From: a virus
Virus record (IMG/VR): IMGVR_UViG_3300035698_012567
Location: 1-59,461 of that record
Length of the DNA: 59,461 nucleotides
Strand: one strand, 5' to 3'
Shown: positions 1 to 56,147 of the stretch, one piece after another
Layout: each line of letters starts with the position of its first letter
How positions within the stretch are numbered: position 1 is the first letter of the stretch
The notes under the pieces: model-generated
What the model saw: the letters and a program-made list of their open reading frames with translations, nothing else
What the model was told of the DNA's origin: nothing
Databases searched by the model: none
Translations under genes and position numbers: made by a program

Positions 1-371
1 AATACCATAGGGTGCATATTAGGACGTTCTGCTATCTGTATTCTAACTGTTTCGGTTTCGTATTGTACTAAGTTACAGTATGCTTCAGCGGGGGTATTAG
101 GATTACGCATTAAGTCTGTGTCGACACTTCGTGGTCCGCGGTTACGTGAAAGCATTTCTAATGTAACGTGTGAGGTATTCTTATTTGCTGCAATCTTACG
201 TAGTATTACCCATAGTGCGTGCTGATCGGAGCGTCTGTAGTATTTTTGGGGGTGCTCCGCCATTGCGTGAAGGATATGTGGACAAGTATCTTCACTTCTT
301 GATAGAAGATGTAGTAGCTTATCTGTCATTAACCCCAACGCTATTTGTACTTCAAACTCCTTGTAGGTCAT
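1..371 (-). CDS. ALGT-box protein with HEAT/LRV-like repeats, 3' end cut by the window edge
   Basis: Partial gene; about 123 residues are visible and the C-terminus lies outside the window. The N-terminus MTYKEFEVQIALGL is a clear ALGT box, the short module found in over twenty proteins of this window. Downstream are two helical repeat cores, KIAANKNTSHVTLEML and LMRNPNTPAEAYCNLV, which match the A-x-x-N-x-x-T-P pattern of LRV/HEAT-like repeats seen in its paralogues. The start overlaps the stop of the upstream phosphoesterase gene by 20 bases, so the two are probably translationally coupled. Function is unknown. Repeats of this type usually form a protein-binding solenoid, which is an inference here. 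Confidence 0.8.
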   Translation of the reverse strand, partial: MTYKEFEVQIALGLMTDKLLHLLSRSEDTCPHILHAMAEHPQKYYRRSDQHALWVILRKIAANKNTSHVTLEMLSRNRGPRSVDTDLMRNPNTPAEAYCNLVQYETETVRIQIAERPNMHPMV

Positions 372-1972: not shown

Positions 1973-2659
1973 TCACTGAATAGTGAATGTTGTACCGATG
2001 TAATCGTCAATAAGTTCACCTTGGAACGTGTTATTAGCGTTTTGACTAATGCGAGCAAGTGCTCCACCATCCCAAAATGCAGGAACCGTGTGTGCATTTA
2101 TAGTATTTTGCGCGTCCCATGAGGAATGTAGTGCGTAATCCTCTTTGGGTATAGAAAGGTGCGCTATAATACTTCCTCGTAGTGTTCCTAATGCTTTCTG
2201 TGCTTTTAATTCCTGTGTCAGCGCGAGGGTATTTAAGTGTCTGACCAGTGTAGTGCACATTGCAATCATATGGTGTGTTGCCATTATGTAATTGTTCACA
2301 TGATTAAATAACACTTCTCCTTCTATATCCCATAATTTTAACCATAATTTATGTGGCTGCATCATCCACTCGTCTCGACCCTTTCGCCTTGGAGTATCCC
2401 GCAGGATTATATCTGGACCGGGACACTTGAGTGTTTGGGCGAATAGTGCTGGCTTTGCTGATTTGTATATTGACTCGGGTTCCCATTCTTGTGTCTTGGG
2501 AAGAATAAGGTGTACATCTCGTGGAAGTATTCCATGTCCATAAGGATCTGAAACTTGGGTTTTCATTATATCCTTTTGTTCTTCGAAGGTTTTCTTCCAC
2601 GCTTTATGTGCATGTTGGGCCTGAAGAAGTGATGTTCTACTGAATCTACTTAGGTGCAT
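1973..2659 (-). CDS. Hypothetical protein with internal ALGT-like segment
   Basis: 228 residues from the chosen ATG, which has SD GGAGAAAAAGG; an in-frame start 48 bases upstream lacks comparable support and overlaps the preceding gene more. No known domain. The N-terminus is basic (RFSRTSLLQAQHAHKAWKK) and the centre is tryptophan- and histidine-rich. In the C-terminal half the segment ELKAQKALGTLRG resembles the ALGT box but lacks the usual K/N-E-x spacing, so I treat it as a possible degenerate copy. Soluble. It overlaps the preceding zinc-ribbon gene by 14 bases. Confidence 0.65.
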   Translation of the reverse strand: MHLSRFSRTSLLQAQHAHKAWKKTFEEQKDIMKTQVSDPYGHGILPRDVHLILPKTQEWEPESIYKSAKPALFAQTLKCPGPDIILRDTPRRKGRDEWMMQPHKLWLKLWDIEGEVLFNHVNNYIMATHHMIAMCTTLVRHLNTLALTQELKAQKALGTLRGSIIAHLSIPKEDYALHSSWDAQNTINAHTVPAFWDGGALARISQNANNTFQGELIDDYIGTTFTIQ

Positions 2660-2858
2660 CCTTTTTCTCCTGTACCGCTGGTCTACCTGTCCCCCATAAT
2701 GATCCACATCTCCTACATTTATAGTGGGGTTTAGTGTCTTCAGGGAGAATCACACTATCCTTTAGTTCTTTTACCTTAGTAGCTGAACATGTTGGACACG
2801 TTTTACACAGCGAATGCATTTCTGTGATTCCCGATGTCGATAGTCTTTCCACGCTCAC
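2646..2858 (-). CDS. Small zinc-ribbon protein
   Basis: 70 residues from a GTG start; an ATG at residue 14 is an alternative. Two cysteine knuckles, C-K-T-C-P-T-C and C-R-R-C, are spaced like a zinc ribbon. Such proteins bind nucleic acid or protein partners; the function here is unknown. It overlaps the next gene on the same strand by 14 bases, which suggests translational coupling. Confidence 0.65.
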   Translation of the reverse strand: MSVERLSTSGITEMHSLCKTCPTCSATKVKELKDSVILPEDTKPHYKCRRCGSLWGTGRPAVQEKKDAPK

Positions 2859-4222: not shown

Positions 4223-4567
4223 TTATGCTATTTGAAATGTCCTTCTTGTTGCTGTTCCTAACGCGTTTTGAATATCCCACTCTTTCGTTGTGAGATTTGA
4301 TTTAATTTTATTTTCTTCGACTAAATATCGTAATGCTCTTATGACTTTACAACGTTCTGTTACCATCGTCATTACCATCCCGTGTGTATGGTCGGTACCA
4401 TTTTTATCTGTTGACCGTATAATAAGAGAAGAAAAGCCATTCCCTGTCCACTGCCCCACGTGTTGCATAATTATGAGATTCTGTGGGGCGTTTTTCGGTG
4501 TGAGTCTTGCTAAGATTCTGCGCTTGTGCCATTCTATAGATTTGCTCGAATGCTTTTTTCTTCTCAC
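4223..4567 (-). CDS. Hypothetical protein with C-terminal ALGT box
   Basis: 114 residues. The N-terminus is strongly basic and no known domain is visible. Near the C-terminus is LTTKEWDIQNALGTATRR, a good ALGT box placed about 20 residues from the end instead of at the start. The protein is therefore one of several showing that the module is portable. The upstream start region also carries a competing frame, so the exact N-terminus is uncertain. Confidence 0.6.
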   Translation of the reverse strand: MRRKKHSSKSIEWHKRRILARLTPKNAPQNLIIMQHVGQWTGNGFSSLIIRSTDKNGTDHTHGMVMTMVTERCKVIRALRYLVEENKIKSNLTTKEWDIQNALGTATRRTFQIA

Positions 4568-5884: not shown

Positions 5885-5922
5885 GGCTATGTACTCGAAT
5901 CTGCCATACAAGGCTTCCGGTT
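5885..5922 (-). repeat. GATTCGAGTAC leader element, copy 1
   Basis: The minus strand reads AACCGGAAGCC, a short loop, GGC, then GATTCGAGTAC. The same order of AACCG, a C/G-bounded loop and GATTCGAGT(A/G)C is found at 14342 and 15928, in each case just upstream of a start codon. It could be an RNA leader structure or a tRNA-derived relic. Confidence 0.4.
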
Positions 5923-6295
5923 AGAGTGATCCTATTGCAATTTGAATATCGAGTTCCTTATAGAAGTCCGCAAACACTTCACGTCGTTTCATAACGTAAA
6001 AGGGTACTGAATTTTCTATACGGTAATCTATTAACGCTTGAATGTACTGAAGGTTATCGATTGCTGTATCTGTACCTACATATACTTTATGATCGAACCA
6101 GGTGCCCAATAGGAAAGGATAGTCGTTGCGTCTATTAACAGGAAAGGACCAATGAAATCCAGTCTTTCGATTTGGGCTAAAATGCTTTTTCATTACTTCT
6201 AAAGTGATCAACTTTGGCCGCGGCATCGCTTTGTAGAGGAGGGCACAGATCTGTAATTCTTCGCGAGTTAACTTAGGAAGCATCTTCGTCCTCAT
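5921..6295 (-). CDS. Hypothetical protein ending in an ALGT-like box
   Basis: 124 residues with no recognised domain. The middle has an aromatic-rich strand region (FHWSFPVNRRNDYPFLLGTW). The last residues, KELDIQIAIGSL, match the ALGT consensus (K-E-x-x-I-Q-x-A-I-G-S) and end the protein. It overlaps the preceding ALGT-box gene by 23 bases on the same strand, so one transcript would carry an N-terminal and a C-terminal version of the module. Confidence 0.65.
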   Translation of the reverse strand: MRTKMLPKLTREELQICALLYKAMPRPKLITLEVMKKHFSPNRKTGFHWSFPVNRRNDYPFLLGTWFDHKVYVGTDTAIDNLQYIQALIDYRIENSVPFYVMKRREVFADFYKELDIQIAIGSL

Positions 6296-6530
6296 CCTTG
6301 CATAACTTTTCTACTTGGGTAGGGGTAAGTTTTACATTGGAGATCATAAATACGTAATCTGCATCCATCTCATATTCAGGATCTTCATATATAAAGAGGC
6401 CAAAGTTTTCGAGCGCTTCTTCAAGGTCCTCTAACGGTAGGCCACCTCTGTGCATTCGATTAGCGCATACAAACATTTGGGACTTTATTGTCCCAAGTGC
6501 GTTTTGAATTTTCTTTTCTTTGTCATTCAA
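6273..6530 (-). CDS. ALGT-box protein
   Basis: 85 residues starting MNDKEKKIQNALGTIKS, a canonical ALGT box. The rest is acidic with a helical centre (EDLEEALENFGLF) and a C-terminal tail DEDEDAS. No catalytic motif. Function unknown. It is co-oriented and overlapping with the next gene, which carries the box at its C-terminus. Confidence 0.75.
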   Translation of the reverse strand: MNDKEKKIQNALGTIKSQMFVCANRMHRGGLPLEDLEEALENFGLFIYEDPEYEMDADYVFMISNVKLTPTQVEKLCKDEDEDAS

Positions 6531-10944: not shown

Positions 10945-11733
10945 TTAATCGTCTGCAATTGTGATTCTATTCAAGTCGAGTAAGGTAAGCATAGATGCTA
11001 CTATTACGGAGCTCGCCTTCTCATTAAATACTAATTGTTTAAGTGTTGATACTGGTGTACTTTTATTCTGTGCTACAATCTTTCTGATCGCTGCTTTTGA
11101 GGAAAGAGACAATTTTATTAACGTGCGGGATGGCGTTATTGGATTACCTGCAACGCTTGCCTGCGGATTGTGCCAACTTCCTCTTACATCACCTGTATCT
11201 TTTGCAAGTTCCTTCAATATTTCTGGAGGAGTGCTTGGATGCATTGCAACCGCATTGCGCACTATCGCTGCTGTATGCGTTGAGAGTATTCTTAAATATG
11301 ATGGAGGTGTCTGTGGATTCTTTATCGCATCTCCTGATACACGTCCCATATTTTTTATATCTAAGTTATGAATAGTTTGCAATACTTGAGTAAGGCACGC
11401 AAGTGGGAGGCGCGGGTGATCTAAAATCATCGTCACAGGATGAAAATAGGAGCTACCCCTTTTGTGACATTCCGCCCATTTTTCGCCTGTACATAATTCC
11501 GAGTCCTCGTATATCTCTTGTAACACCTTCGTAGGTACATTAGTGTGTTTCGTCAAGGCCTTCATCGCCATATACGAGAGAGTGCCGGATCTATAGAGGC
11601 GCGTAAGGATTTCGCCGGAGGTATTCCTACGTTTAATTACCCGTAAAAGCATTGCGTCATCCAACGATCCTAATGCGACCTGTACCTTGATTTCTTTTGG
11701 ATCGTGCGGCAATTTAGGTAGAGGTAATGCCAT
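10945..11733 (-). CDS. ALGT-box protein with LRV/HEAT-like repeats
   Basis: 262 residues. The N-terminal DPKEIKVQVALGSLDDAM (about 11-28) is an ALGT box preceded by ten residues. The remainder is a row of about six helical repeats whose cores read A-I-K-N-P-Q-T-P-P-S-Y-L, NAVAMHPSTPPEILKELA, SVAGNPITPSRTLIKLS and KIVAQNKSTPVSTLKQLV. This A-x-x-N/H-x-x-T-P-x-x-x-L pattern fits leucine-rich variant (LRV) or HEAT-like solenoids, which bind other proteins. It is the longest member of the family here and follows a strong promoter at 11801. Confidence 0.85.
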   Translation of the reverse strand: MALPLPKLPHDPKEIKVQVALGSLDDAMLLRVIKRRNTSGEILTRLYRSGTLSYMAMKALTKHTNVPTKVLQEIYEDSELCTGEKWAECHKRGSSYFHPVTMILDHPRLPLACLTQVLQTIHNLDIKNMGRVSGDAIKNPQTPPSYLRILSTHTAAIVRNAVAMHPSTPPEILKELAKDTGDVRGSWHNPQASVAGNPITPSRTLIKLSLSSKAAIRKIVAQNKSTPVSTLKQLVFNEKASSVIVASMLTLLDLNRITIADD

Positions 11734-13913: not shown

Positions 13914-14312
13914 TTAGTCAATGATAATCGCTCCGTCATCACCCATATCTTCTATCATTTCGTCGGCTGATCCCGTTGAGGTGCGCGCAATTTCTACGTA
14001 GTCAGTATTCAGTCGTTTCGGGTCAATATATTTTATCGCGCACGTGGATGTTGCTTCAATTGCTTCTATTCCTATTTCGCCATATTCTGCACGTAGGTCC
14101 CCATATTCTATGGCGAAAGCACATCCACCTTTTATTATCCTTCGTTTTTCATCTAAAGAAAGTGAATATATTTTACGCTTAACGTCTTCTTTATTTACTC
14201 CAGTAACGACAACGGGTACTTCGATTGATACTATAATATCGATCCCCAATTTAACTATATGCCCTCTTTCGAGGCCTAATGCTTTCTGTATTTCCTTTTC
14301 TTTGTCGTCCAC
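13914..14312 (-). CDS. ALGT-box protein
   Basis: 132 residues beginning MDDKEKEIQKALGLERGH. The next segment (DIIVSIEVPVVVTGVNKEDV) resembles the beta-strand plus charged helix of the two ALGT proteins at 15441 and 15592, so these three form a subfamily. The C-terminus is acidic. The leader upstream carries the GATTCGAGTAC element. Function unknown. Confidence 0.75.
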   Translation of the reverse strand: MDDKEKEIQKALGLERGHIVKLGIDIIVSIEVPVVVTGVNKEDVKRKIYSLSLDEKRRIIKGGCAFAIEYGDLRAEYGEIGIEAIEATSTCAIKYIDPKRLNTDYVEIARTSTGSADEMIEDMGDDGAIIID

Positions 14313-14381: not shown

Positions 14382-14810
14382 TTATTTTAGATCTAACTTT
14401 GTTTGCAATTTGCTTTCAGATGCACGAATACCTACAACGTAGTCTGGTAATGTATTCAATGCCATCTGTGTGAGAAATTCGTTACGTGTCATCGTACGAA
14501 AGCATATAAGCTTCTTTTCAACGCCGAGTATTATATGTTTTGCTATTACGGTTTGTCCGTTTTCTTCTCGAAAAGTATCAGGATGCGCATAAATTACCCA
14601 ATATTTGGGGGAATAGTAACAATAAAGATCCGCAGTATATGTTCCACTTATTGCCCGTAAATATTTGACGACTTGCGTACAGCTTTCAAATGTGGGCGGA
14701 GAATATATCGCAGGTTTTTGCGCTATGGGGGAACGTCGATGCCCACGTTCTTCCCTTCGTTTCTTTTGCCTTAGATGGCGTCGATTTCTATTTAAGAAAC
14801 TTCTGGCCAT
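14382..14810 (-). CDS. Hypothetical protein with C-terminal ALGT-like box
   Basis: 142 residues. The N-terminal 28 residues are highly basic (RNRRHLRQKKRREERGHRR). A soluble alpha/beta middle follows. Near the C-terminus MTRNEFLTQMALNTLP fits the ALGT box with N for G. Its start overlaps the stop of the GNAT gene by one base. No known family. Confidence 0.6.
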   Translation of the reverse strand: MARSFLNRNRRHLRQKKRREERGHRRSPIAQKPAIYSPPTFESCTQVVKYLRAISGTYTADLYCYYSPKYWVIYAHPDTFREENGQTVIAKHIILGVEKKLICFRTMTRNEFLTQMALNTLPDYVVGIRASESKLQTKLDLK

Positions 14811-26201: not shown

Positions 26202-26591
26202 CTATGCAATGATCTGCGAACGGATGAACTTGATGACATCCTCTTCGCCGTCGAATTGATCGGCTCGATCATCATCGCTCTCTACGAAGGCTACGATGGC
26301 TTTCTTCGGTGTCTTCGCATTCATCAGAATCTCTCGCAGAACGTCAACGTCTGTCTCCCAGCTAAGGAGATCGCCAAGAATCTTCGTCGGCGTATTCTCG
26401 TTGCCCGCGACAGCCATCCGGACGACGGCAGAAGGATCCTGCGACAGGTCCTTGATACATTGTATGCGCTCTGCATTGTAGATCTGCGGAGTCTTGCTAC
26501 CTTTCGATGTCTTCTTCGTTGTCCGCAGAGCGGCTTTCAACGATCCCATCGCTTCGTCTGTGTTTGGGCGGTCTTCATTGTTGTCGGACAT
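26202..26591 (-). CDS. LRV/HEAT-like repeat protein, strongly expressed type (2 of 3)
   Basis: 129 residues. After an acidic N-terminus comes G-S-L-K-A-A-L-R-T-T-K-K, then repeats VRMAVAGNENTPTKILGDLL and L-R-E-I-L-M-N-A-K-T-P-K-K-A-I, ending ADQFDGEEDVIKFIRSQ. It aligns with the genes at 18295 and 27220. Codon use is markedly GC-rich compared with its neighbours, which suggests selection for high expression. It has its own promoter at 26682. The S-L-K-x-A-L segment may be a distant version of the ALGT box. Confidence 0.82.
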   Translation of the reverse strand: MSDNNEDRPNTDEAMGSLKAALRTTKKTSKGSKTPQIYNAERIQCIKDLSQDPSAVVRMAVAGNENTPTKILGDLLSWETDVDVLREILMNAKTPKKAIVAFVESDDDRADQFDGEEDVIKFIRSQIIA

Positions 26592-27219: not shown

Positions 27220-27576
27220 TTAGACATTTAGAGTCGAGCGAATGTAACTGATCAACTCAGCATCGTCAGAGAACTGATCTACTCTTGAGCTTGCACAGAA
27301 GTCAGCTAGCTGCTTCTTTGGTAGACTGACATGAGTCAAGATAGCTCTCAACGTATCGCTATCTGTTTCTACCTCGATACGTGTCTTGAGAACGCCTACA
27401 GCGCAACATTCACTTTCGACGACTGCTCGACGAACTGATACATCCTCATGACTTGACATCTCGCCAACGTGTAGCTGACGTTGCTTGTTGTACCAACTCG
27501 CATTCTTTGTCGAGTTGTTCTTCTTGTTCTTCGAGCCAGCTGCTAAAGCTGTCTTGAGCTCTGACATAGAATTCAT
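27220..27576 (-). CDS. LRV/HEAT-like repeat protein, strongly expressed type (3 of 3)
   Basis: 118 residues. S-E-L-K-T-A-L-A-A-G, a K/N-rich stretch, then SVRRAVVESECCAVGVLKTR and L-R-A-I-L-T-H-V-S-L-P-K-K, ending VDQFSDDAELISYIRS. It is a paralogue of 18295 and 26202, with the second repeat conserved best. Two tandem promoters (27644 and 27740) precede it, the strongest such arrangement in the window. Confidence 0.82.
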   Translation of the reverse strand: MNSMSELKTALAAGSKNKKNNSTKNASWYNKQRQLHVGEMSSHEDVSVRRAVVESECCAVGVLKTRIEVETDSDTLRAILTHVSLPKKQLADFCASSRVDQFSDDAELISYIRSTLNV

Positions 27577-28306: not shown

Positions 28307-28542
28307 TTAGTGGCTTTGTTCTTTCTTAGCCCACCATAGTAAAGTATTGATACGTGAGCTAAGGATTGTAGGGTTACCGAGAGAGTCGGGAATTAAGAGA
28401 ACGCAGTCGCAATGTTTGCAGAGGTATTGGTAGAATACGAAGGATAGTTGAAGGTTACTGTATTCAGAGATGATTTTCCAGGTAGAAAAGTTTCGGGTAG
28501 AGTATTGAGGACTATTTGGATTTTGATTTCGTTCTTAGTCAT
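28307..28542 (-). pseudogene. ALGT-box gene with a frameshift
   Basis: The ATG opens MTKNEIKIQIVLNTLPETF, clearly an ALGT box with N for G. This frame stops at 28393. The other frame continues as FSTWKIISEYSNLQLSFVFY and ends ILSSRINTLLWWAKKEQSH at 28307, which resembles the family. A one-base shift near 28485 would join them. It is the last member of the tandem array, and decay at the array end is plausible. Confidence 0.6.
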
Positions 28543-28576
28543 AATGGTAGGTGACGTTCAAAGAAACGGAGAGAAT

Positions 28577-28813
28577 CTATATCTTCTGTAATGACTGCCG
28601 TGAGTGCACGGTAGTCGGTGAAAGTGTGGGTGCGGGTGTGGGTGTAACGGGGTTGTAATAAATTGCGTTGAGAATATTACTTAAATTTTTAGGTAGGTTA
28701 TTGAAAAGGAATTCAATGATTTCGACGTTGCATGTTCGGTGGGCGAGTATAACGAACTGTTTATGGGAGAAGGTTCCTAATGCCATTTGTGCTTTGACTT
28801 CGTTAAGAGTCAT
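28577..28813 (-). CDS. ALGT-box protein, tandem array member
   Basis: 78 residues from the ATG overlapping the preceding stop; MTLNEVKAQMALGTFSHKQF is a canonical ALGT box. The body is helical (I-I-E-F-L-F-N-N-L). The C-terminus is low-complexity (TPTPAPTLSP), from a GTGTGGGTG repeat, and may be recently altered. An in-frame start 27 bases upstream is less likely. Confidence 0.7.
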   Translation of the reverse strand: MTLNEVKAQMALGTFSHKQFVILAHRTCNVEIIEFLFNNLPKNLSNILNAIYYNPVTPTPAPTLSPTTVHSRQSLQKI

Positions 28814-29057
28814 GTTTGGATTCCATTGCATTAAGTGCACGTAAACGTGAATAGGATGCGCCTTGACACATACCTACTAAAATTAGGGTGTCGGTGCTCG
28901 CGTACCCAATTTCGTCCATATTTGCCATTTCTCTTGCGTATTGTAGAATAGCCTTTAAGAGTGTGCGATTAGTGCTTCTATGGATTTCGTCAATTAAACC
29001 TTCGTTTATTCGAAGTGTCCCTAATGCTATTTGGGTATGAATTTCTTTATCAGTCAT
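28803..29057 (-). CDS. ALGT-box protein, tandem array member
   Basis: 84 residues: MTDKEIHTQIALGTLRINEG then helices and a C-terminal repeat (TLILVGMCQGASYSRLRALN). Its ATG overlaps the stop of the previous gene (ATGA). A longer reading starting at 29126 is rejected because it would cover the preceding gene's end. Confidence 0.75.
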   Translation of the reverse strand: MTDKEIHTQIALGTLRINEGLIDEIHRSTNRTLLKAILQYAREMANMDEIGYASTDTLILVGMCQGASYSRLRALNAMESKHDS

Positions 29058-29335
29058 GATATATGGATACTTGTATTTGCCTGCCTGAGCACCTGTACTA
29101 TTCTTTCTCCAACTTCCGTACGACACTTTTGAGCTATTAGGCGCCTGTTTTGAAAGCGTATCCGCGCTTTATTGTTTACGTGCCGTGTCCATCCTTTAGG
29201 ATCGTGGGACTTGCAATAGGCGTCGATCATAAAGAGTACTTTTATATTTGTTTCAGCATAAATTACATCGAGTAGGTGCCCATCTATCTTTAATGTTCTG
29301 AGAGCCATTTGTGCACGTAGTTCATTTGATGACAT
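29054..29335 (-). CDS. ALGT-box protein, tandem array member
   Basis: 93 residues: MSSNELRAQMALRTLKIDGH, with R replacing G. The C-terminal half is basic (KARIRFQNRRLIAQKCR). The start overlaps the previous stop as TAATG. The M-S-S-N-E-x-R-x-Q start recurs in the C-terminal box of the gene at 36505. Confidence 0.75.
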   Translation of the reverse strand: MSSNELRAQMALRTLKIDGHLLDVIYAETNIKVLFMIDAYCKSHDPKGWTRHVNNKARIRFQNRRLIAQKCRTEVGERIVQVLRQANTSIHIS

Positions 29336-29601
29336 TACCGCCCCCATTGTATATGCTTTGCTAATGCTTGCTTGATGGGTAGAGGAGTATCACTATTATT
29401 GATAAATGCACTAACTACCATTGAGTATCCGTGCCACGGTTGGCGTTCTTCATGTATTTCAGAGTCTTTAAATATTTCATAAAGTTCTTCTATATTTTCT
29501 TTTTCTTCCGCATTTATTACTAGTCTTTGTAAGCATTCACATACCTGTTGTAGAGGTAGTGTACCTAATGCTAACTGTATTTGTATTTCTTTGTTAGTCA
29601 T
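29335..29601 (-). CDS. ALGT-box protein, tandem array member
   Basis: 88 residues: MTNKEIQIQLALGTLPLQQV, helices (LQRLVINAEEKENIEELYEI), then a repeat-like end V-S-A-F-I-N-N-S-D-T-P-L-P-I-K-Q-A-L. So the box and one N-x-x-T-P repeat occur in one short protein. It overlaps the previous gene by 8 bases. Confidence 0.78.
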   Translation of the reverse strand: MTNKEIQIQLALGTLPLQQVCECLQRLVINAEEKENIEELYEIFKDSEIHEERQPWHGYSMVVSAFINNSDTPLPIKQALAKHIQWGR

Positions 29602-29938
29602 CTTCTAACAATTCTTTGTATGTCTTATCTACCGACTTTTGTGCGGCGCACGCATGAAAGCGGGGAAACGCACCCAGCCGCCTATTCGCCATAATTACCT
29701 GTAGTTGTCTTGCTGCCATGATGTAAGATTTCAATTTTGTAGGAGTATGGGGATTACCAAAAAAGGCGTTCGTGATCGCATCTGCATCTTTTCCTTCTTT
29801 TGCATTCCCCATCGATGCAAACAATTTTCCTGCCCGCAACAACACTTCCTTACTGGTAGCTTCGTGAACGATATTGAGAAAGTTCTCCATAGGTAAGGTG
29901 CCTAATGCAAGTTGTACAAGTGTTTCTTTATCAGTCAT
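29594..29938 (-). CDS. ALGT-box protein, tandem array member
   Basis: 114 residues: MTDKETLVQLALGTLPMENF, a helical segment, then ITNAFFGNPHTPTKLKSYIM (repeat core N-P-H-T-P). The tail is basic. It overlaps its neighbours by 8 bases on each side. Confidence 0.78.
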   Translation of the reverse strand: MTDKETLVQLALGTLPMENFLNIVHEATSKEVLLRAGKLFASMGNAKEGKDADAITNAFFGNPHTPTKLKSYIMAARQLQVIMANRRLGAFPRFHACAAQKSVDKTYKELLEDD

Positions 29939-30245
29939 ACTTTATTCTAAATTCACCAAAACGGTTTCGGAGACGTATCAAATCTTGCGTATCGAGGTGA
30001 AGGTTTCGTACGAAGTGTCCGTATACTCCTCGAAAATATTCTGGTGTAATGTGAATACCTAAGTCAGTATTATAGAATATATCTTTGCCTACAATGTATG
30101 TCACACAATTATCGTATACGCCTATATAGAAATCTACTGCGGCAGATAAAACTTTCGGATTAGTAGAGGCGTGTGATATATGCCCCAATTCTTTTAGATC
30201 GAATGTACCCAATGCCATTTGGATGAGGATCTCTTTATCAGTCAC
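29931..30245 (-). CDS. ALGT-box protein, tandem array member
   Basis: 104 residues: MTDKEILIQMALGTFDLKEL, then H-A-S-T-N-P-K-V-L-S-A-A-V-D-F and a divergent C-terminus. It shares the M-T-D-K-E start with its neighbours. Codons for the box differ from copy to copy, so it is the peptide that is conserved. Confidence 0.78.
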   Translation of the reverse strand: MTDKEILIQMALGTFDLKELGHISHASTNPKVLSAAVDFYIGVYDNCVTYIVGKDIFYNTDLGIHITPEYFRGVYGHFVRNLHLDTQDLIRLRNRFGEFRIKYD

Positions 30246-30514
30246 CGTTGATCTCCGTACACCCTTTGCATATTATAATTCTTGTAGAGAAAATTACGAA
30301 TGGCTAATGGGGTATGTGCATTATTATAGAGCAGTGCCATAATTGAATCGTATTTAGTATATGGTATGTTGCGCATATTATCCAATGCGTAGCGAAAAAT
30401 CATATTTAGGATGGCAGGATTATCCTGCGCACGCGCGGCGTCAGTTATTTCGGGCATCTTTATTGTACCCAATACCATCTGTACGACAAATTCTTTATCC
30501 GACGTAATCGGCAT
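30242..30514 (-). CDS. ALGT-box protein, first of the tandem array
   Basis: 90 residues: MPITSDKEFVVQMVLGTIKM, helices and a repeat-like end M-A-L-L-Y-N-N-A-H-T-P-L-A-I-R-N-F-L. It overlaps the end of the dCMP deaminase gene by 20 bases and so shares its promoter. Confidence 0.78.
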   Translation of the reverse strand: MPITSDKEFVVQMVLGTIKMPEITDAARAQDNPAILNMIFRYALDNMRNIPYTKYDSIMALLYNNAHTPLAIRNFLYKNYNMQRVYGDQR

Positions 30515-30986
30515 ATGATACGATCTTTACACCTGTTCGATCAGCTAAGTTAAATGCCGCGAGTGTGAAGTTTTTGTCGTTGTATTTACCGTCTGCATAA
30601 ACTACTGTAGTGATTCCTGCTTGGTTAATTATCTTCATACATTCATTGCATGGTGTCAAGGTACAAAATAGTGTAGCACCCTTGAGTTGACTTCGGTCGA
30701 GTGTATTGAGTACTGCATTCAATTCTGCATGGCAGACATACGGATATTTCGTAGCAAGATATTCTCCCTCAGAAGCCCAGGGAAATAATTTATCGTTAAC
30801 TTGCACTCCAGGTTTATCAGGTTGCACATTAGGCATACCATTATAACCCATGCCTACTATAATATTATCTTGGTTGCAGATGACTGCCCCTACTTGGGTG
30901 CTAGGATCTTTTGATCTTTCTGCGACGAGGTAAGCCATCTTCATGAATAATTCTGGCCAACTAATGTAATCTTTTCTGGGTTCCAT
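30495..30986 (-). CDS. Deoxycytidylate (dCMP) deaminase
   Basis: 163 residues. The zinc site H-A-E (83-85) and P-C-N-E-C (112-116) fit the ComEB/dCMP deaminase family, and V-G-A-V-I, near 33-37, is the usual substrate-side strand. It converts dCMP to dUMP, which ThyX methylates to dTMP. It is the first gene of the leftward operon, directly after the promoter at 31038. Confidence 0.93.
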   Translation of the reverse strand: MEPRKDYISWPELFMKMAYLVAERSKDPSTQVGAVICNQDNIIVGMGYNGMPNVQPDKPGVQVNDKLFPWASEGEYLATKYPYVCHAELNAVLNTLDRSQLKGATLFCTLTPCNECMKIINQAGITTVVYADGKYNDKNFTLAAFNLADRTGVKIVSYADYVG

Positions 30987-31159: not shown

Positions 31160-31197
31160 AGTTAAAAAGCGGCACATATGCTAAAAAGGATTTGTTG

Positions 31198-31674
31198 ATG
31201 TTGGCTCGTTCGCAGATAAGATCACATGCACGGAAGATTGGTGGACCGTTGAATATGCCATTAGTTCGTTATCGCTACAAGGAGGCGGCTATTAGAGTTG
31301 ATTCTGTGAAGGAGTATAAGGTTCAAGAGGCTCTCGGCATACGTGTTGTGATGTGTGAGAAGTGCGTAGATAAAGGAATATATCGAGATATTTCCGTGTA
31401 TGATAGAGATGATTTTATCTGTTCACATTGTACTGCTGGATGGTTTTTTACTTGGAAGAATTGGCTTGATCTCGGACATAGTCAGCATAAGTTGACCCCG
31501 TGTTCAGAGCACCCTGATTATACTGGAGAAGAGCAGCCGAAAGTGCTTTGCGAACGTTGTTGGAAAATTAGGTTTGCAGCACCACAAAAAGATGGTGAAT
31601 TTATAGATAATTTTGGTATATATTCTGAAGAAAAATTACTTGAATTTGGTAGAGAGTACGGAGTAACTAGATAA
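31198..31674 (+). CDS. Zinc-finger protein with internal ALGT-like box
   Basis: 158 residues from the ATG. A basic N-terminus leads to SVKEYKVQEALGIRVVMCEK, an ALGT box at about 37-49, directly followed by cysteine knuckles C-E-K-C and C-S-H-C. A second set follows: C-S-E-H-P and C-E-R-C. So the box is joined to a zinc-binding body instead of starting the protein. First gene of the rightward arm. Alternative starts further in (MPLVRYRY) cannot be excluded. Confidence 0.7.
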   Translation: MLARSQIRSHARKIGGPLNMPLVRYRYKEAAIRVDSVKEYKVQEALGIRVVMCEKCVDKGIYRDISVYDRDDFICSHCTAGWFFTWKNWLDLGHSQHKLTPCSEHPDYTGEEQPKVLCERCWKIRFAAPQKDGEFIDNFGIYSEEKLLEFGREYGVTR

Positions 31675-31697: not shown

Positions 31698-31770
31698 TGG
31701 CGGGGTAGAGCAATGGTAGCTTGTCTGTCTCATACGCAGAAGGTTGGTGGTTCGACTCCTCCCCCCGCCA
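31698..31770 (+). tRNA. tRNA-Met (anticodon CAT)
   Basis: GGCGGGG/CCCCGCC acceptor, anticodon stem TCTGT/GCAGA with loop CTCATAC, and discriminator A. Initiator, elongator and lysidine-modified Ile forms cannot be told apart by eye. Confidence 0.9.
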
Positions 31771-31798
31771 CTATAAATATTTCTAGGTGTAGAACAGG

Positions 31799-32095
31799 AT
31801 GACTAAAAAAGAATTCGTTGTTCAGAGAGCGCTTGGCACTTTACGTGAAAGGCAGTTCATTTTAACCATCACAGGTAGTGGTGAACATCATTACTTGTTG
31901 AATGTATTTTCAAATGGTAGACGTCCTTACCTTGGAGATACTTTAGATAATTGGGCGCGATCTGGGCTATTATCTTATGAACGTTATAGAATACGTCAGG
32001 TAACGTCTGTGGATCATCTTAAGGCTTTTGTACTGACTCGGAAGCATACCCTTTGGGTAGGTGCCGGTAGGGAAGACATTAAATGCGTTGATTAA
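31799..32095 (+). CDS. ALGT-box protein
   Basis: 98 residues: MTKKEFVVQRALGTLRERQF is a canonical box on the plus strand, so the family is not confined to one operon or strand. The body is a small beta-rich domain (FILTITGSGEHHYLLNVF) and a helix. It lies between two tRNAs. SD is weak (ACAGG). Confidence 0.75.
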   Translation: MTKKEFVVQRALGTLRERQFILTITGSGEHHYLLNVFSNGRRPYLGDTLDNWARSGLLSYERYRIRQVTSVDHLKAFVLTRKHTLWVGAGREDIKCVD

Positions 32096-32098
32096 ATA

Positions 32099-32173
32099 TC
32101 TAGATATGGTGTTTAACGGCAGCATGCACGGTTTGGGTCCGTGTGGTGCAAGTTCGAATCTTGCTATCTAGAC
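32099..32173 (+). tRNA. tRNA-Pro (anticodon TGG)
   Basis: TCTAGAT/ATCTAGA acceptor, anticodon stem CACGG/CCGTG with loop TTTGGGT, T-arm GCAAG/CTTGC. CCA is not encoded in register. Confidence 0.88.
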
Positions 32174-32181
32174 CAAATTGC

Positions 32182-32254
32182 GGCCCGGTGATGGAATGGC
32201 AGACATGTTGGTTTTAGAAACCAAATTTTGGAAGTTCGAATCTTCCCTGGGCTA
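32182..32254 (+). tRNA. tRNA-Leu (anticodon TAG), short variable arm
   Basis: GGCCCGG/CTGGGCT acceptor with two G-T pairs and discriminator A. Anticodon stem TTGGT/ACCAA with loop TTTAGAA, T-arm GGAAG/CTTCC. The variable region is only ATTTT, whereas Leu tRNAs normally have a long arm. The anticodon reads CUA leucine codons. Confidence 0.82.
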
Positions 32255-32264
32255 TAAAAAATGA

Positions 32265-32325
32265 CTATAGAAGACGGGTTCGACTCCCGCCACGTGCACT
32301 TGGGTTTGTTGGAATACTTCTATAG
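32265..32325 (+). ncRNA. tRNA-like structured element with outer 9 bp stem
   Basis: CTATAGAAG and CTTCTATAG close a stem around a T-arm-like hairpin (ACGGG-TTCGACT-CCCGC), followed by CACGTGCAC. The T-arm lies at the 5' side, as in a circularly permuted tRNA. Only 27 bases remain for acceptor and D-arm, too few for a full cloverleaf. It lies between two normal tRNA genes. Confidence 0.4.
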
Positions 32326-32342
32326 ACTGACTATTTAATTTC

Positions 32343-32415
32343 GGGTGGTAATGTTCCAAGGCAGGCGACAAGGTCTCCAAAACCTCGTGGCCAGGTTCGA
32401 TTCCTGGACTGCCCG
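32343..32415 (+). tRNA. tRNA-Trp (anticodon CCA)
   Basis: GGGTGGT/ACTGCCC acceptor, discriminator G, anticodon loop CTCCAAA on stem AGGT/ACCT, T-arm CCAGG/CCTGG. Confidence 0.88.
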
Positions 32416-32420
32416 CATAT

Positions 32421-32504
32421 GCGTCGGTGGCAGAGTGGTTGAATGCGCCCGGCTGTAGACCGGGTTTGAAAGACGCGGTGGTTCGAATCCATCCCGACGC
32501 ACCA
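32421..32504 (+). tRNA. tRNA-Tyr (anticodon GTA)
   Basis: GCGTCGG/CCGACGC acceptor, anticodon stem CCCGG/CCGGG with loop CTGTAGA, long variable arm as expected for bacterial Tyr, CCA encoded. Confidence 0.93.
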
Positions 32505-32542
32505 TTGAACTTATACTGAGGTTACAAATAGGAGTTATTTTT

Positions 32543-32836
32543 ATGAAACGTTTGTTACTGTTTATTATCGTTCTTGTTTTTGGCCTGTGTTTGTTTCCTT
32601 CATCTGCAGCAGCAGATTATACTTGGGGTGGTGAGCAAGGATATATCGGTGGCGGAATCGATGGTTCGATGAATGCTACACCTAAAGATGAAGATCCTTG
32701 GGATATAAATATTCCCGAAGATGTGGATGGTGTGAGTGATACTACCGATGGTGGTTGTAGTGTCGCAGCATATGATCCAACCGACCCTGCGATGTATTGG
32801 ATAATTTGGGGTAACCTTTACCCTGAACCTTTTTAA
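32543..32836 (+). CDS. Small secreted protein
   Basis: 97 residues. Signal peptide MKRLLLFIIVLVFGLCLFPS then S-A-A-A, with cleavage likely after A-A-A. The mature part is acidic and glycine-rich (GGIDGSMN, EDVDGVSD) and ends W-I-I-W-G-N-L-Y. It would act outside the cytoplasm; function unknown. Confidence 0.7.
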   Translation: MKRLLLFIIVLVFGLCLFPSSAAADYTWGGEQGYIGGGIDGSMNATPKDEDPWDINIPEDVDGVSDTTDGGCSVAAYDPTDPAMYWIIWGNLYPEPF

Positions 32837-32859
32837 GATAGTATAGTAGGAAGATTGTT

Positions 32860-32913
32860 ATGAGAAAACGAAAACCAAAGAGACACAGGAAGCCTTACGG
32901 GTCCCTAGTCTAA
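32860..32913 (+). CDS. Basic 17-residue peptide ORF
   Basis: MRKRKPKRHRKPYGSLV then stop; ten of 17 residues are K or R, with one H. A GGAAG SD lies 7 bases before the ATG. Its last four codons overlap the start of tRNA-Arg, which makes it less certain. Confidence 0.35.
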   Translation: MRKRKPKRHRKPYGSLV

Positions 32914-32971
32914 TTGGAAAGACACCAGTCTTCTAAACTGGATTATCTGAGTTCGAGTCTCAGGGGACCTA
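32899..32971 (+). tRNA. tRNA-Arg (anticodon TCT)
   Basis: GGGTCCC/GGGACCT acceptor, anticodon stem CCAGT/ACTGG with loop CTTCTAA, T-arm CTGAG/CTCAG, discriminator A. Confidence 0.92.
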
Positions 32972-32975
32972 TAAC

Positions 32976-33049
32976 GGGCCGTTAACTCAGCCTGGTTAGA
33001 GTAGCGGACTTTTAATCCGTTAACCTGAGTTCAAATCTCAGACGGCCCA
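32976..33049 (+). tRNA. tRNA-Lys (anticodon TTT)
   Basis: GGGCCGT/ACGGCCC acceptor, anticodon stem GCGGA/TCCGT with loop CTTTTAA, T-arm CTGAG/CTCAG, discriminator A. It lies 4 bases after tRNA-Arg. Confidence 0.93.
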
Positions 33050-33062
33050 TTTTAAAATTTAT

Positions 33063-33138
33063 GGCTCCTTAGCTTAGTGGTTAAAGCAATCGGCTGTTAA
33101 CCGATAGATCCAAGGTTTGAATCCTTGAGGAGCCTCCA
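33063..33138 (+). tRNA. tRNA-Asn (anticodon GTT)
   Basis: GGCTCCT/AGGAGCC acceptor, anticodon stem ATCGG/CCGAT with loop CTGTTAA, T-arm CAAGG/CCTTG; CCA encoded after discriminator T. Confidence 0.92.
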
Positions 33139-33155
33139 AACTAATTGAGGTGAAT

Positions 33156-33203
33156 ATGCGTATACGCGATATACCTTGTGATAGCCGCTGGCGCGGCTTA
33201 TAG
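33156..33203 (+). CDS. 15-residue peptide ORF
   Basis: MRIRDIPCDSRWRGL then stop, with a TGAGGTGA SD 3 bases upstream. Codons 10-15 coincide with a 6 bp hairpin (AGCCGC/GCGGCT), so the segment may be an RNA feature instead. It lies between tRNAs. Confidence 0.3.
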   Translation: MRIRDIPCDSRWRGL

Positions 33204-33209
33204 TAAATT

Positions 33210-33308
33210 AGGCGCCGAACGTTAGGTCGCAGTGGGTAGCTCCTACGAGAGGTTCGAATCCTCGGTTAGCTCTGGTAGAGCAAGTGGTTCGATTCCGCTG
33301 AGGCGCCT
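33210..33308 (+). ncRNA. Atypical tRNA-like element with two T-loop-like hairpins
   Basis: A perfect 7 bp outer stem (AGGCGCC/GGCGCCT) encloses two T-loop-like hairpins: GAGG-TTCGAAT-CCTC and, next to the 3' acceptor strand, AGTGG-TTCGATT-CCGCT. Between them GCTCT/AGAGC forms a small arm like a long variable arm. If the first hairpin is the anticodon arm, the anticodon would be CGA (Ser). The D-arm is unclear. Confidence 0.45.
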
Positions 33309-33317
33309 CTAAATAAT

Positions 33318-33393
33318 GCCGGTGGTAGTTTAATGGTAAAGCGCCTGACTGTGAATCAGGAATATATAGGTTCAAATCCTGTCCCCGGTACCA
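33318..33393 (+). tRNA. tRNA-His (anticodon GTG)
   Basis: GCCGGTG/CCCCGGT acceptor with one mismatch, anticodon stem CCTGA/TCAGG with loop CTGTGAA, T-arm ATAGG/CCTGT, CCA encoded. The extra 5' base expected for His would be the preceding T. Confidence 0.88.
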
Positions 33394-33401
33394 AAATGAG
33401 G

Positions 33402-33417
33402 ACTATATTAATATAGT
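33402..33417. repeat. Palindrome ACTATATTAATATAGT
   Basis: A perfect 16-base palindrome 9 bases after tRNA-His. It contains the CTATATTA core of the GAACTATATTA motif found after other tRNAs. Confidence 0.5.
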
Positions 33418-33462
33418 AGTTATAGCTGCTAATTAATTAACTTGTGATAGGAGGGATCACTA

Positions 33463-33729
33463 ATGATCTTTACAACTAAACCTGATATTTATTCTGTTGT
33501 CCGTGCACTCGCATGTTATGGTGCAGTTGCTACAATGATGGCCATTTTTGGCATGTCGGCAACTCTTGCTGCGCTATTTACTCTGATCGGTGCGCTGGGG
33601 CTTGAATTACTTGACGAGCTGAATCATAAGAAAGGTTGGGATAATCGTTTTCTCGATCCTCGCGGCGGCAACTGGCTTGATGTGATTATCGTGTTCGGTG
33701 CGACGTTCGTAGGTTACCTCGTTTTCTAA
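33463..33729 (+). CDS. Membrane protein (88 aa)
   Basis: 88 residues with three hydrophobic stretches (about 14-32, 33-48, 73-88). An E-L-L-D-E-L-N-H-K-K-G-W-D loop and F-L-D-P-R-G-G-N-W-L-D-V precede the last helix. E-x-x-D followed by D-P-x-G-x-x-x-D is reminiscent of small VanZ-type or YfiM-type membrane proteins. SD AGGAGGG is strong. Confidence 0.65.
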   Translation: MIFTTKPDIYSVVRALACYGAVATMMAIFGMSATLAALFTLIGALGLELLDELNHKKGWDNRFLDPRGGNWLDVIIVFGATFVGYLVF

Positions 33730-33779
33730 AAAGTCAATACTGAGGGTATAACCCTTTAGCAAAGTATGGTTGGTACAAA

Positions 33780-33944
33780 GTGAAGAAAGTAGACAAGTGT
33801 CCTATACATCCCCGATATCAAGGTAAGCGTGATCCGCGAGCCATGTGTCGGGGATGTTGGCGTTATTACATGTCTGAAAATCTCAGAAGGTTGCAGAAAG
33901 AGAATGATGAATTAGAGTACCATAAATTACGGGCAAAGAAATGA
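33780..33944 (+). CDS. Small zinc-finger protein (54 aa), GTG start
   Basis: 54 residues from GTG: C-P-I-H-P then C-R-G-C-W (C-x2-H-x13-C-x2-C), followed by a helix (NLRRLQKENDELEYHKLRAK) like a short leucine zipper. No strong SD. It may be a DNA- or RNA-binding regulator. Confidence 0.6.
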   Translation: MKKVDKCPIHPRYQGKRDPRAMCRGCWRYYMSENLRRLQKENDELEYHKLRAKK

Positions 33945-33963
33945 AACATGTAAGGAGAGTGTA

Positions 33964-34314
33964 ATGCCTATTCAAGTGAACGTTATTGAAGACGATGAGC
34001 TTCGTGGACAGATTAGAGACATGATTGATGGGCAGTTTCGCTCTCTTGTACGCGATGAAGTCGCTGTACAACTACACCTTCTCGTGAAGGAGAGCCTTGC
34101 TAAATGTTTTACAGAAGCGAAGTTACTTCATACAGTGCAACAATCTTTTAGCGCAGATTGGTACCTTAGAGAACAGACGCTTCGTGCCGTTTTACAGGAG
34201 TATTTAAAGGATCATTATGGTTCTCAGGTCGAGGCAATGCTAGCTTCCCTTGATCTTGACTCTATTGCTACAGAGTTTGTGACAAAGAAATTAAGAGAAA
34301 AGTCGGCTAAATAG
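33964..34314 (+). CDS. Hypothetical helical protein (116 aa)
   Basis: 116 residues, almost entirely helical, charged, soluble; no known domain. SD AAGGAGAG. It is nine bases from the sugar-nucleotide dehydratase gene and probably co-transcribed with it. Confidence 0.65.
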   Translation: MPIQVNVIEDDELRGQIRDMIDGQFRSLVRDEVAVQLHLLVKESLAKCFTEAKLLHTVQQSFSADWYLREQTLRAVLQEYLKDHYGSQVEAMLASLDLDSIATEFVTKKLREKSAK

Positions 34315-34323
34315 GAGAAAATT

Positions 34324-35286: not shown

Positions 35287-35375
35287 TTCGAACACCCAAA
35301 AGACTGCCTCGCCTACTCCCGCAGCGCTTGGGGGAGCCAACTTAAGTAGGAATGGTTGGCTCCATGTTCGATAAA
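35287..35375 (+). other. Hairpin between gmd and tRNA-Phe
   Basis: GGAGCCAAC/GTTGGCTCC, a 9 bp stem with a 13-base loop, at about 35333-35363, lacks a U-run. It may be an RNA-processing signal ahead of the tRNA cluster. Confidence 0.4.
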
Positions 35376-35380
35376 TATTT

Positions 35381-35455
35381 GGCTCTGTAGCTCAGTAGTA
35401 GAGCGCGAGATTGAAGATCTCGGCGTCGGAGGTGCGATCCCTCCTGGAGCCACCA
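35381..35455 (+). tRNA. tRNA-Phe (anticodon GAA)
   Basis: GGCTCTG/TGGAGCC acceptor, anticodon stem CGAGA/TCTCG with loop TTGAAGA, CCA encoded. Confidence 0.93.
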
Positions 35456-35459
35456 AACA

Positions 35460-35552
35460 TTGCGGAACAACATAGAGGTATTCCCCTCTGTGTGTTGCCA
35501 GGGAATACTGGTCGAGGTGCTGGGTGCAAAGCCGATCCTTACCGCAGCAAAT
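35460..35552 (+). ncRNA. Possible structured small RNA between tRNA-Phe and tRNA-Cys
   Basis: Ends TTGCGG and CCGCAGCAA can pair with one bulge, and an inner hairpin AGAGG/CCTCT is extended by CAACA/TGTTG. The 93-base interval has no reading frame or anticodon arm. It could be a small RNA or a relic of a tRNA. Confidence 0.35.
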
Positions 35553-35553
35553 T

Positions 35554-36504: not shown

Positions 36505-36723
36505 ATGAAGCAAATATTTATCATGGTGTATCGTTTTCTTAGGTTACGCTGTAGATATTGTGGTAGATCGCTAAAGTTTTATCCGCAATATCCCGGATAT
36601 TATTGCCCAACGGACGCATATACTGCTAAAGGGCCCAATTGTGGGGCGCGTAAATGTTTTATGTCAAGTAATGAGATAAGAGTTCAGGTAGCTTTGGGCC
36701 TTTCGAAGATAATAGGCAAATGA
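36505..36723 (+). CDS. Zinc-ribbon protein with C-terminal ALGT box
   Basis: 72 residues. C-R-Y-C-G-R-S (about 16-22) and C-P-T-D then C-G-A-R-K-C form a zinc ribbon. The last 20 residues, MSSNEIRVQVALGLSKIIGK, are an ALGT box nearly identical in its start to the N-terminus of the gene at 29054. The box might also be translated alone from its own internal ATG (36661). Transcription begins at the start codon, so the gene is probably leaderless. Overlaps the next gene by 4 bases (ATGA). Confidence 0.7.
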   Translation: MKQIFIMVYRFLRLRCRYCGRSLKFYPQYPGYYCPTDAYTAKGPNCGARKCFMSSNEIRVQVALGLSKIIGK

Positions 36724-43497: not shown

Positions 43498-43815
43498 ATG
43501 AAGAGCTATTATACTGTTTCTGAAGATGGGATAAATCTTTTGACCGCTGCAGGTGGTTTTGTATTGCATTATCCTTTTCCTCGACCAAATGATGCTGACC
43601 AATTATTTTTTACTTCTGATTTAGCATCCGGACATTCTCAGGCAATAACTTCGGGAGCATTTAGTGCATTAGTTGATGCTTCTCGATTAATCCCTAAATT
43701 GACTGATGAAGAGTATACAGTGCAAAAAGCGTTAGGTTCTATAGATTGTAGGGTATATGAAGTATTACCTACGCTCTTAGATTGGATTGATGAGAAAAAG
43801 GAGAAGCTTAAATGA
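43498..43815 (+). CDS. Protein with central ALGT box, probably leaderless
   Basis: 105 residues. The first 65 form a beta-rich domain (YYTVSEDGINLLTAAGGFVL); then IPKLTDEEYTVQKALGSIDC is an ALGT box at about 66-82, followed by a helix and basic end. No SD. The -10 is 6 bases upstream, so a leaderless mRNA is likely. ATG-A overlap with the next gene, which starts with an ALGT box, so the two boxes lie about 34 codons apart in consecutive genes. Confidence 0.72.
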   Translation: MKSYYTVSEDGINLLTAAGGFVLHYPFPRPNDADQLFFTSDLASGHSQAITSGAFSALVDASRLIPKLTDEEYTVQKALGSIDCRVYEVLPTLLDWIDEKKEKLK

Positions 43816-44486
43816 CATTGAATGAGTATAAAGCGCAATTAGCTTTAGGCACTATAGATTTTCGAGAAGCTGCACATTCTACTGAAAATAGTGAGGTTTT
43901 GCAGGATATTGTGGGTAGAACTGACGATATTGCCGCATTATCTGCAGTATCGACCAATAATCACGCGAATCTCTACACTTTGACTCTACTTGCTACGTTT
44001 CCCCATGCGGAAAAGGGTGTAATTATTTCGTGTGCGCACCATCCAAATGTTACTCTTCCCATTTTACTGCAATGGCTGAAATACCCCGATATCCGTCATG
44101 TAACTGCAGTACAGTGGCGAGTTAGGACACTTCAAATTGCTACAGGTATAAGCGAAGACGATGCATATCAAATTACTGGTTCTCCTGCGGATGACTACTC
44201 GACGCGTATATGGGACGAGATGCAACGTGAGTATGCAAAGAGACATACAGGGTCGTCACCCCTAAAGAAATGGAAGGTACCTGATACACAGCGTCAGTAT
44301 ACGTTCTGGACATCTACTGGGGGTAATTCTACAATTGAATTGGATGATAAACGGTTCAAGTTTAGTATACCTTCTCCTGATGATGGCCCGAGGATATATG
44401 GTGCTGAGGGTATTATTACTTCATATGATTACGCAGCGTCGACCATTCCTGACCCTTCTGAGGAGGTTGCTGATGAAGTATCATGA
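43812..44486 (+). CDS. ALGT-box protein (224 aa)
   Basis: 224 residues: MTLNEYKAQLALGTIDFREA is a canonical box. The next 70 residues carry repeat cores (SAVSTNNHANLYTLTLLATF, IISCAHHPNVTLPILLQWLK) of the N/H-x-x-x/T-L/P-x-x-L type. The C-terminal 100 residues form a separate beta-rich segment (RQYTFWTSTGGNSTIELDDK). Overlaps both neighbours. The largest plus-strand member of the family. Confidence 0.8.
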   Translation: MTLNEYKAQLALGTIDFREAAHSTENSEVLQDIVGRTDDIAALSAVSTNNHANLYTLTLLATFPHAEKGVIISCAHHPNVTLPILLQWLKYPDIRHVTAVQWRVRTLQIATGISEDDAYQITGSPADDYSTRIWDEMQREYAKRHTGSSPLKKWKVPDTQRQYTFWTSTGGNSTIELDDKRFKFSIPSPDDGPRIYGAEGIITSYDYAASTIPDPSEEVADEVS

Positions 44487-47255: not shown

Positions 47256-47594
47256 ATGGTGACTAAAAAAGAACTTATGGTGCAAATTGCTATCGGGACT
47301 ATATCTGATGCTAAACAACTTGCAGGTTTAGTTAAAATTACTGCCGATGTAGAAGTACTTTCTTGGGCAATGAAACATAAATATTCTCCTGTGCGCATTG
47401 CGGCAATCACTAATAGCAATTGTCCCATAGGTTTCCTTTTAGAGGCATTTATTATGGAGGAGGGTAAAGGCGCGCGCGAGGCGCTCGATGTTGCGGTACA
47501 ACATCGTCGAGAGGAGTTTGAATATTTGGTACGTGATGTAGTAAGATGTTATCCTCAATTAGCTTTGGATCTAAAGCATGATTCATCTAATTGA
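47256..47594 (+). CDS. ALGT-box protein with repeat
   Basis: 112 residues: MVTKKELMVQIAIGTISDAK (I-A-I-G-T variant), then helical repeats with core VRIAAITNSNCPIGFLLEAF (T-N-S-N-C-P in place of N-x-x-T-P). It starts 5 bases after the AAA gene and overlaps the next gene by 17 bases. Confidence 0.78.
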   Translation: MVTKKELMVQIAIGTISDAKQLAGLVKITADVEVLSWAMKHKYSPVRIAAITNSNCPIGFLLEAFIMEEGKGAREALDVAVQHRREEFEYLVRDVVRCYPQLALDLKHDSSN

Positions 47595-55820: not shown

Positions 55821-56147
55821 ATGGCCCTTACTCTTACTGAAATTAAGGTATATATTGCGTTAGGTACGTTTGATACCTCAATTTATACTGAACTTTACCA
55901 TATAGATGATTTAGCATTGCTTACTTTTGTTGCGACTGTCGATGATGTTAAGTTACGTCGTGCAGTTGCTGCCAATAGACATACACCTTTTAGAGTACTT
56001 CGACGAATGTATCGTGAAGACACTGATTTATTGGTTAAGGAGTGCGCGTGGGAGCGTACACGATTGCGATATATTAGTATGTTTCATATAGATCCGCCCC
56101 CTCCTCCATGGATAAAAATTCTTGATCCGTACGATCTTCCAGAGTAA
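55821..56147 (+). CDS. ALGT-box protein with LRV-like repeat
   Basis: 108 residues: MALTLTEIKVYIALGTFDTS, then LRRAVAANRHTPFRVLRRMY, a very good A-A-N-x-H-T-P repeat, and a proline-rich end (DPPPPPWIKILDP). The ATG directly abuts the def stop codon. It is the last gene of the 43.5-56.1 kb operon. Confidence 0.8.
   Translation: MALTLTEIKVYIALGTFDTSIYTELYHIDDLALLTFVATVDDVKLRRAVAANRHTPFRVLRRMYREDTDLLVKECAWERTRLRYISMFHIDPPPPPWIKILDPYDLPE

Follow-up and report, generated by a model that had tools for sequence, protein, structure and literature searches.

A short peptide motif recurs at the start, in the middle and at the end of many proteins in a large-phage lineage

Introduction

What is conserved in a run of small, overlapping genes behind a phage dCMP deaminase, all of which open with the same short peptide? 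The genes lie in a phage record of 59,461 bases, which was analysed over its whole length and is referred to here as the window. The initial annotation described eight consecutive, overlapping minus-strand genes, each beginning with an "ALGT box", and proposed duplication followed by diversification under a constant N-terminal constraint. Does selection in fact hold the N-terminus of one gene family, or does it hold the peptide itself, wherever it stands?

Results

The portal protein encoded in the window is nearest to that of Bacillus phage G (34% identity). The left end of the window (1-127) is the exact reverse complement of the left end (1-127) of a sister contig of 130,254 bases (G012; L091, IMG/VR contig 3300035698_024657). 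Because this 127-base overlap is exact and the GC contents match (40.5 vs 41.1%), as expected for contigs of one assembly graph, the two most likely belong to one phage genome of at least ~190 kb with ~40 box genes. The related contigs have orthologues in common with one another; all relatives are metagenomic fragments, and the lineage is known here from sequence alone. Near its right end, the window carries a repeated element (58759-59027) that matches several spaced sites in G012 106344-107867 at 75-97% identity. The portal gene is interrupted by ~1.3 kb in G003, G004, and G005, at the same site in each (equivalent to window 52343/52344); this candidate intron or intein is absent from the window, G001, and G002. 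Close behind the portal gene of the window lie a sigma factor-like gene (54440-55231) and a peptide deformylase gene (55233-55820), followed by a box gene with LRV-like repeats.

Seven of the eight tandem genes are intact (28577-30514) and all seven are box-first, with the consensus T-D-K-E-x-x-[VI]-Q-x-A-L-G-T-[LFI] (Table 1). The eighth is a truncated reading frame of 49 codons, and the length of the intact genes, previously given as 80-115 codons, is 78-114 codons. As described, the cluster comes directly after dCMP deaminase and the switch to divergent genes at about 31 kb. The overlaps along the cluster, beginning with that between dCMP deaminase and gene 1, are 20, 4, 8, 8, 1, 4, and 11 bases, and a gap of 34 bases then precedes the eighth frame. 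Shine-Dalgarno-like sequences are weak or absent before most of the genes, as expected for translational coupling. Gene 7 may be shifted at a CACCC repeat, since another frame ends in a stop codon that overlaps the next ATG. An A-x-x-N-x-x-T-P element, which had been noticed in some of the proteins, is visible in genes 1, 3, 4, and 7. An array of ~17 tRNA genes on the plus strand (31699-43435) starts at the gene-direction switch beside the cluster. A second small family of paralogues on the minus strand (18295-18696, 26202-26591, and 27220-27576) has an LRV-like repeat and no ALGT box; its own common motifs are an N-terminal LK.AL...KK and a C-terminal DQF....I..IRS.

Matches among genes 1-7 by tblastn span both box and body (e.g., 32% identity over 77 residues, E=1e-4), and the seven are true, diverged paralogues over their whole length, in agreement with the proposed duplication and diversification. 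The box of the eighth frame is homologous to the others and its body is not recognisable in any frame; consequently this gene is probably a decayed copy. At the same place behind dCMP deaminase, the related contig G001 does not have one long fused gene. Instead, it carries two distinct box genes, of which one is fused to a preceding NADAR domain, so that copy number differs between relatives (7-8 in the window vs 2 in G001). Window gene 3 matches the fused copy of G001 at E=4e-12 and its own neighbours only at E ~1e-4, so the tandem paralogues probably diverged earlier than the two phages. Loss in one phage or expansion in the other may account for the unequal copy numbers; in a tree of the tandem copies all forks were weak and no branching order was obtained. 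Relatives of the dCMP deaminase outside the clade are without boxes.

Table 1. Coordinates of the tandem genes and of the other box genes in the window.
Feature	Coordinates	Strand	Remarks
dCMP deaminase upstream of cluster	30495..30986	-	phrog_174, E=1.2e-41
Tandem box gene 1	30242..30514	-	90 aa; 20-base overlap with dCMP deaminase
Tandem box gene 2	29931..30245	-	104 aa, GTG start; homologue of G001 4666-5058
Tandem box gene 3	29594..29938	-	114 aa; best match to box part of G001 NADAR-box fusion; AF2 all-helical, box at helix 3-12
Tandem box gene 4	29335..29601	-	88 aa
Tandem box gene 5	29054..29347	-	97 aa, or 93 aa from the ATG at the box (start 29335)
Tandem box gene 6	28803..29057	-	84 aa
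Tandem box gene 7	28577..28813	-	78 aa; C-terminal end may be frameshifted at CACCC repeat
Eighth box frame, truncated	28393..28542	-	49 aa; probably decayed
Box and LRV solenoid	10945..11733	-	262 aa; Pfam PF01816, E=4e-12
Box and LRV-like protein	3..371	-	Runs off the window, across the junction into G012
Box and LRV-like protein	47256..47594	+	Orthologues in G001 and G003, box kept
Box and LRV-like protein after peptide deformylase	55821..56147	+	Orthologues in G001 and G002, box kept
N-terminal box, LRV-like body	43812..44486	+	Orthologue in G003
N-terminal box protein	31799..32095	+	Divergently transcribed from cluster
N-terminal box protein	6273..6530	-	TTG start
N-terminal box protein	13914..14312	-	GTG start
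Box near C-terminus	43498..43815	+	Residues 69-82 of 105; same place in G001 orthologue
Internal box, then Cys-x2-Cys zinc-ribbon-like body	31192..31674	+	
Internal box	1973..2707	-	Residue 163 of 244
Internal box near C-terminus	14382..14810	-	Residue 108 of 142
Zinc-ribbon-like, C-terminal box	36505..36723	+	G001 homologues 10366-10581 and 10578-10799 also end with box
Protein whose end is exactly the box	5921..6295	-	FYKELDIQIAIGSL-stop
C-terminal box	4223..4567	-	TTKEWDIQNALGTA plus 8 residues

The box is not a feature of this cluster alone. Scoring the window with a 14-position weight matrix yields 23 strong copies, only seven intact and one decayed of them in the cluster, and an independent profile returns the same number; since the reversed window contains no match of such strength, a chance origin is excluded. 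The window has ~114 open reading frames of 50 codons or more, which puts the share of genes with a box at roughly one in five. G012 has ~20 further copies, and four related contigs contribute 20 in total (G001 12, G002 1, G003 2, G020 5). The box is absent from phage G (497 kb), from the distant relative G004 (168 kb), and from G005. Among 85k bacterial and archaeal genomes, the box pattern has three matches, in unrelated genes and with no second box, which we judge to be chance, and in IMG/VR repeated matches occur only in relatives, the single ones elsewhere again being judged chance. Two box proteins compared by tblastn with 50,697 phage records gave no match. The box is thus restricted to this clade within the collections searched, and a literature search, incomplete in coverage, found no paper that describes it.

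The sample of 61 boxes analysed below comes from six related contigs; the box of the G012 primase and one open reading frame of 27 residues were left out. With starts set at the most upstream ATG or GTG, so that a few "internal" boxes may really be N-terminal, 39 boxes are N-terminal (no more than 15 residues from the start), 15 internal, and seven C-terminal (within 10 residues of the end). Most begin at residue 2. A weight matrix built from the N-terminal boxes only gives the internal and C-terminal ones 21-36 bits, against a maximum of 7.7 for reversed sequences. Conservation is nearly absolute at four positions (E4 in 61/61, Q8 in 59/61, A10 in 59/61, and G12 in 58/61). The core residues are kept in all seven C-terminal boxes, which have nothing or almost nothing after them; the core is therefore not explained by packing against a following body. 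Box position is the same between orthologues, C-terminal boxes included, and every orthologue found of a window box protein in the box-bearing relatives keeps its box. The proposed constant constraint on the N-terminus is accordingly not supported: in unrelated proteins the motif is conserved just as well mid-chain and at the very C-terminus, so that what selection maintains is a portable peptide employed across the genome and not the beginning of a single duplicated gene family.

At what level does selection act on this motif? The view that the bodies are more diverged than the box is borne out in 18 homologous pairs, where box and body have pN values of 0.20 and 0.44 and pS values of 0.63 and 0.68, respectively; box and body thus do not evolve at equal rates, with the proviso that the boxes were picked by score, which somewhat favours the difference, and that body alignments independently found the same orthologues. 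Synonymous codons at the conserved box residues (E, Q, A, L, G, and T) occur at broadly the frequencies seen elsewhere in each genome. Since codons follow genome usage and pN is lower in the box at equal pS, these comparisons place the constraint on the peptide, not on the DNA. For the same reasons we reject, as having next to no chance of being correct, the reading of the box as a DNA- or RNA-level element, such as a recombination cassette or regulatory element lying in frame by chance, which the many copies, many of them at gene starts, and the tandem cluster might otherwise have suggested.

The bodies that carry the box are diverse. Those recognised are LRV repeats, zinc ribbons, and a NADAR domain, and most carriers are without known function. 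Scans of the tandem proteins and the 61 carriers against Pfam, PHROGs, and PADLOC returned only LRV, NADAR, weak zinc-ribbon, and DnaG/Toprim-type matches. The LRV solenoid at 10945-11733 scores 46 bits against PF01816 (curated cut-off 21.6) and is the only one of the 61 carriers to match that family at E<=0.01; no protein of the tandem cluster matches it. In the G001 fusion, the box is internal, between the NADAR domain (Pfam E=2.6e-24) and a solenoid. The window itself has a nicotinamide phosphoribosyltransferase gene adjoining a cytidylyltransferase/NUDIX-like gene (38623-41134), a phage NAD salvage pair. G012 encodes two putative two-helix membrane proteins with a C-terminal box, their membrane helices judged by eye. 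Few boxes occur within the structural module. The DnaG-like primase of G012 begins with MLNDLTRREKEIQLALGI, a weak but complete box core (17.7 bits by the weight matrix). Its G020 orthologue, 78% identical, starts directly at the primase domain, the box-bearing N-terminus being absent through an exact in-frame gap of 48 bases, and the more distant orthologue in G004 has a short, partly similar N-terminus, MNKEIEHLIATN. Because of that partial similarity, the primase box may represent either a gain or a loss.

AlphaFold2 (AF2) models were made of solenoid carriers only. For nine tandem-family sequences the model is all-helical (pLDDT 84, pTM 0.74), with the box predicted as a helix at residues 3-12 and LGT as a turn; five LRV-box orthologues and paralogues gave a similar result (pLDDT 86, pTM 0.71, box helix 4-12). 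Local pLDDT of the box helices is ~83-90, and in both models the box is continuous with the helical bundle rather than placed on a flexible or disordered linker. Foldseek found no significant match for either model, the best being designed HEAT-like alphaReps (E=0.5). A profile search of the PDB with the box gave a best hit at E=0.87, rejected as chance, and a permutation test gave no significant evidence that conservation lies on one face of the helix (p ~0.16-0.45).

Discussion

What might a motif of this kind do? Docking or targeting is the simplest reading of a conserved short helix that is placed freely on dozens of unrelated proteins and selected at the protein level. We propose, with confidence a little better than even, that the box is a portable helical motif that recruits its many carriers to one shared partner. 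The motif, ~14 residues with the core E-x-x-[VI]-Q-x-A-L-G-[TS]-[LIF], would form a short helix and dock its carriers onto a common partner of phage or host origin. In the large-phage lineage, dozens of small accessory proteins would have acquired this tag at one of their ends or within the chain, and the tagged proteins would come together at a single site or complex in the infected cell. On this view, the tandem cluster would be one block of tagged, alpha-solenoid-like proteins, duplicated long ago, with one copy now decaying. The docking function, the single partner, and the intracellular destination are what we infer from the motif and its distribution. An intracellular rather than a virion destination is favoured because putative membrane proteins, zinc ribbons, a NADAR enzyme, and perhaps a primase are among the carriers, and because position in the chain is free. 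A bolder version, which we hold only tentatively, is a genome-wide linear targeting code, in which one 14-residue helical address tag at any chain position directs ~40 small proteins to one site organised by the phage or to one host complex; if true, it would be the phage counterpart of an organelle-targeting signal.

Several other explanations deserve consideration. The box could be a virion-packaging signal resembling the capsid targeting sequences of T4, with tagged proteins packed into the prohead and delivered together with the DNA to subvert the host. Short signals of this kind are found in T4 and P1 (PMC9024508, PMC5694885), most boxes start at residue 2, and giant phages carry many ejected proteins. 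We nevertheless consider packaging improbable, given the seven boxes at the extreme C-terminus and the 15 internal ones, the putative membrane proteins and the NADAR enzyme that carry a box, the scarcity of boxes in the structural module, and the lack of a general T4-type L/I-x-E cleavage signal. A somewhat less probable reading is a self-association helix, through which carriers would assemble by box-box contacts, with no separate receptor. As is predicted for the box, encapsulation peptides of microcompartments, amphipathic terminal helices that form trimeric bundles (PMC12339742), place a short helix on diverse proteins at either end; the conserved polar E4 and Q8 and the small A10 and G12 of the box, however, suggest specific recognition more than a generic hydrophobic surface, and the box helices in the models are not on disordered linkers.

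More unlikely again, though kept alive by the models, is the reading in which the box has no docking role and is simply the first helix of one old LRV/HEAT-like alpha-solenoid family whose bodies have decayed beyond recognition. Many carriers are LRV-like, the tandem genes are paralogous over their whole length, and in the AF2 models of solenoid carriers, which place the box as helix 1 of a bundle with HEAT-like folds as the nearest, non-significant, solved relatives, it could be just that. However, zinc-ribbon, NADAR, and membrane carriers retain the same core, as do C-terminal boxes that no body follows. A tag for degradation or for a protease adaptor, controlling how long accessory proteins last, would also be short, portable, and found at either end, and we give it very little credence: known degrons are usually position-specific at a terminus, and conserved internal copies do not fit.

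Most genes of large phages are without known function and have been studied singly, whereas a common tag would group ~40 proteins of one phage into one system. The docking motif would moreover provide a direct handle, since whatever binds the tag would show where all carriers go. For phage capsids, linear address signals have been described in a few proteins; the abundance and positional freedom of the box would be new.

How does the box compare with known systems? In T4, the internal proteins have short N-terminal capsid targeting sequences in common, and in P1 the N-terminal 30-residue signal of DarB is enough to package a reporter (PMC9024508, PMC5694885); the P1 study reports that the Dar proteins have no consensus in common (PMC9024508). 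The likeness to these signals, including that of T4 Alt, is a short N-terminal peptide that is common or transferable to unrelated phage proteins. In contrast, 22 of the 61 boxes are internal or C-terminal, the box occurs ~40 times in one genome, and the L/I-x-E motif of the prohead protease is far from universal (7/61 boxes have L at position 2 before E4); a virion location is only a candidate here. Microcompartment encapsulation peptides are helices of ~18 residues that serve as portable N- or C-terminal tags on diverse proteins (PMC12339742), a likeness to the box, which is a predicted helix in the solenoid carriers modelled; but where those peptides follow a loose amphipathic pattern, the box has E, Q, A, L, and G nearly fixed, and it has no evident disordered linker, and no shell system is known here. 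LRV proteins (PF01816) are related to the subject through the several carriers with LRV-like repeats, one of which passes the Pfam cut-off; the box lies outside the LRV profile and also on non-LRV proteins, and the LRV proteins of G004 are without boxes. Finally, import into the phage nucleus of Chimalliviridae (PicA) is likewise a large-phage way to send many proteins to one place. There, a linear signal was sought and not found, and recognition is by protein surface (PMC11087766); here, no nucleus is known, but the motif is linear and conserved.
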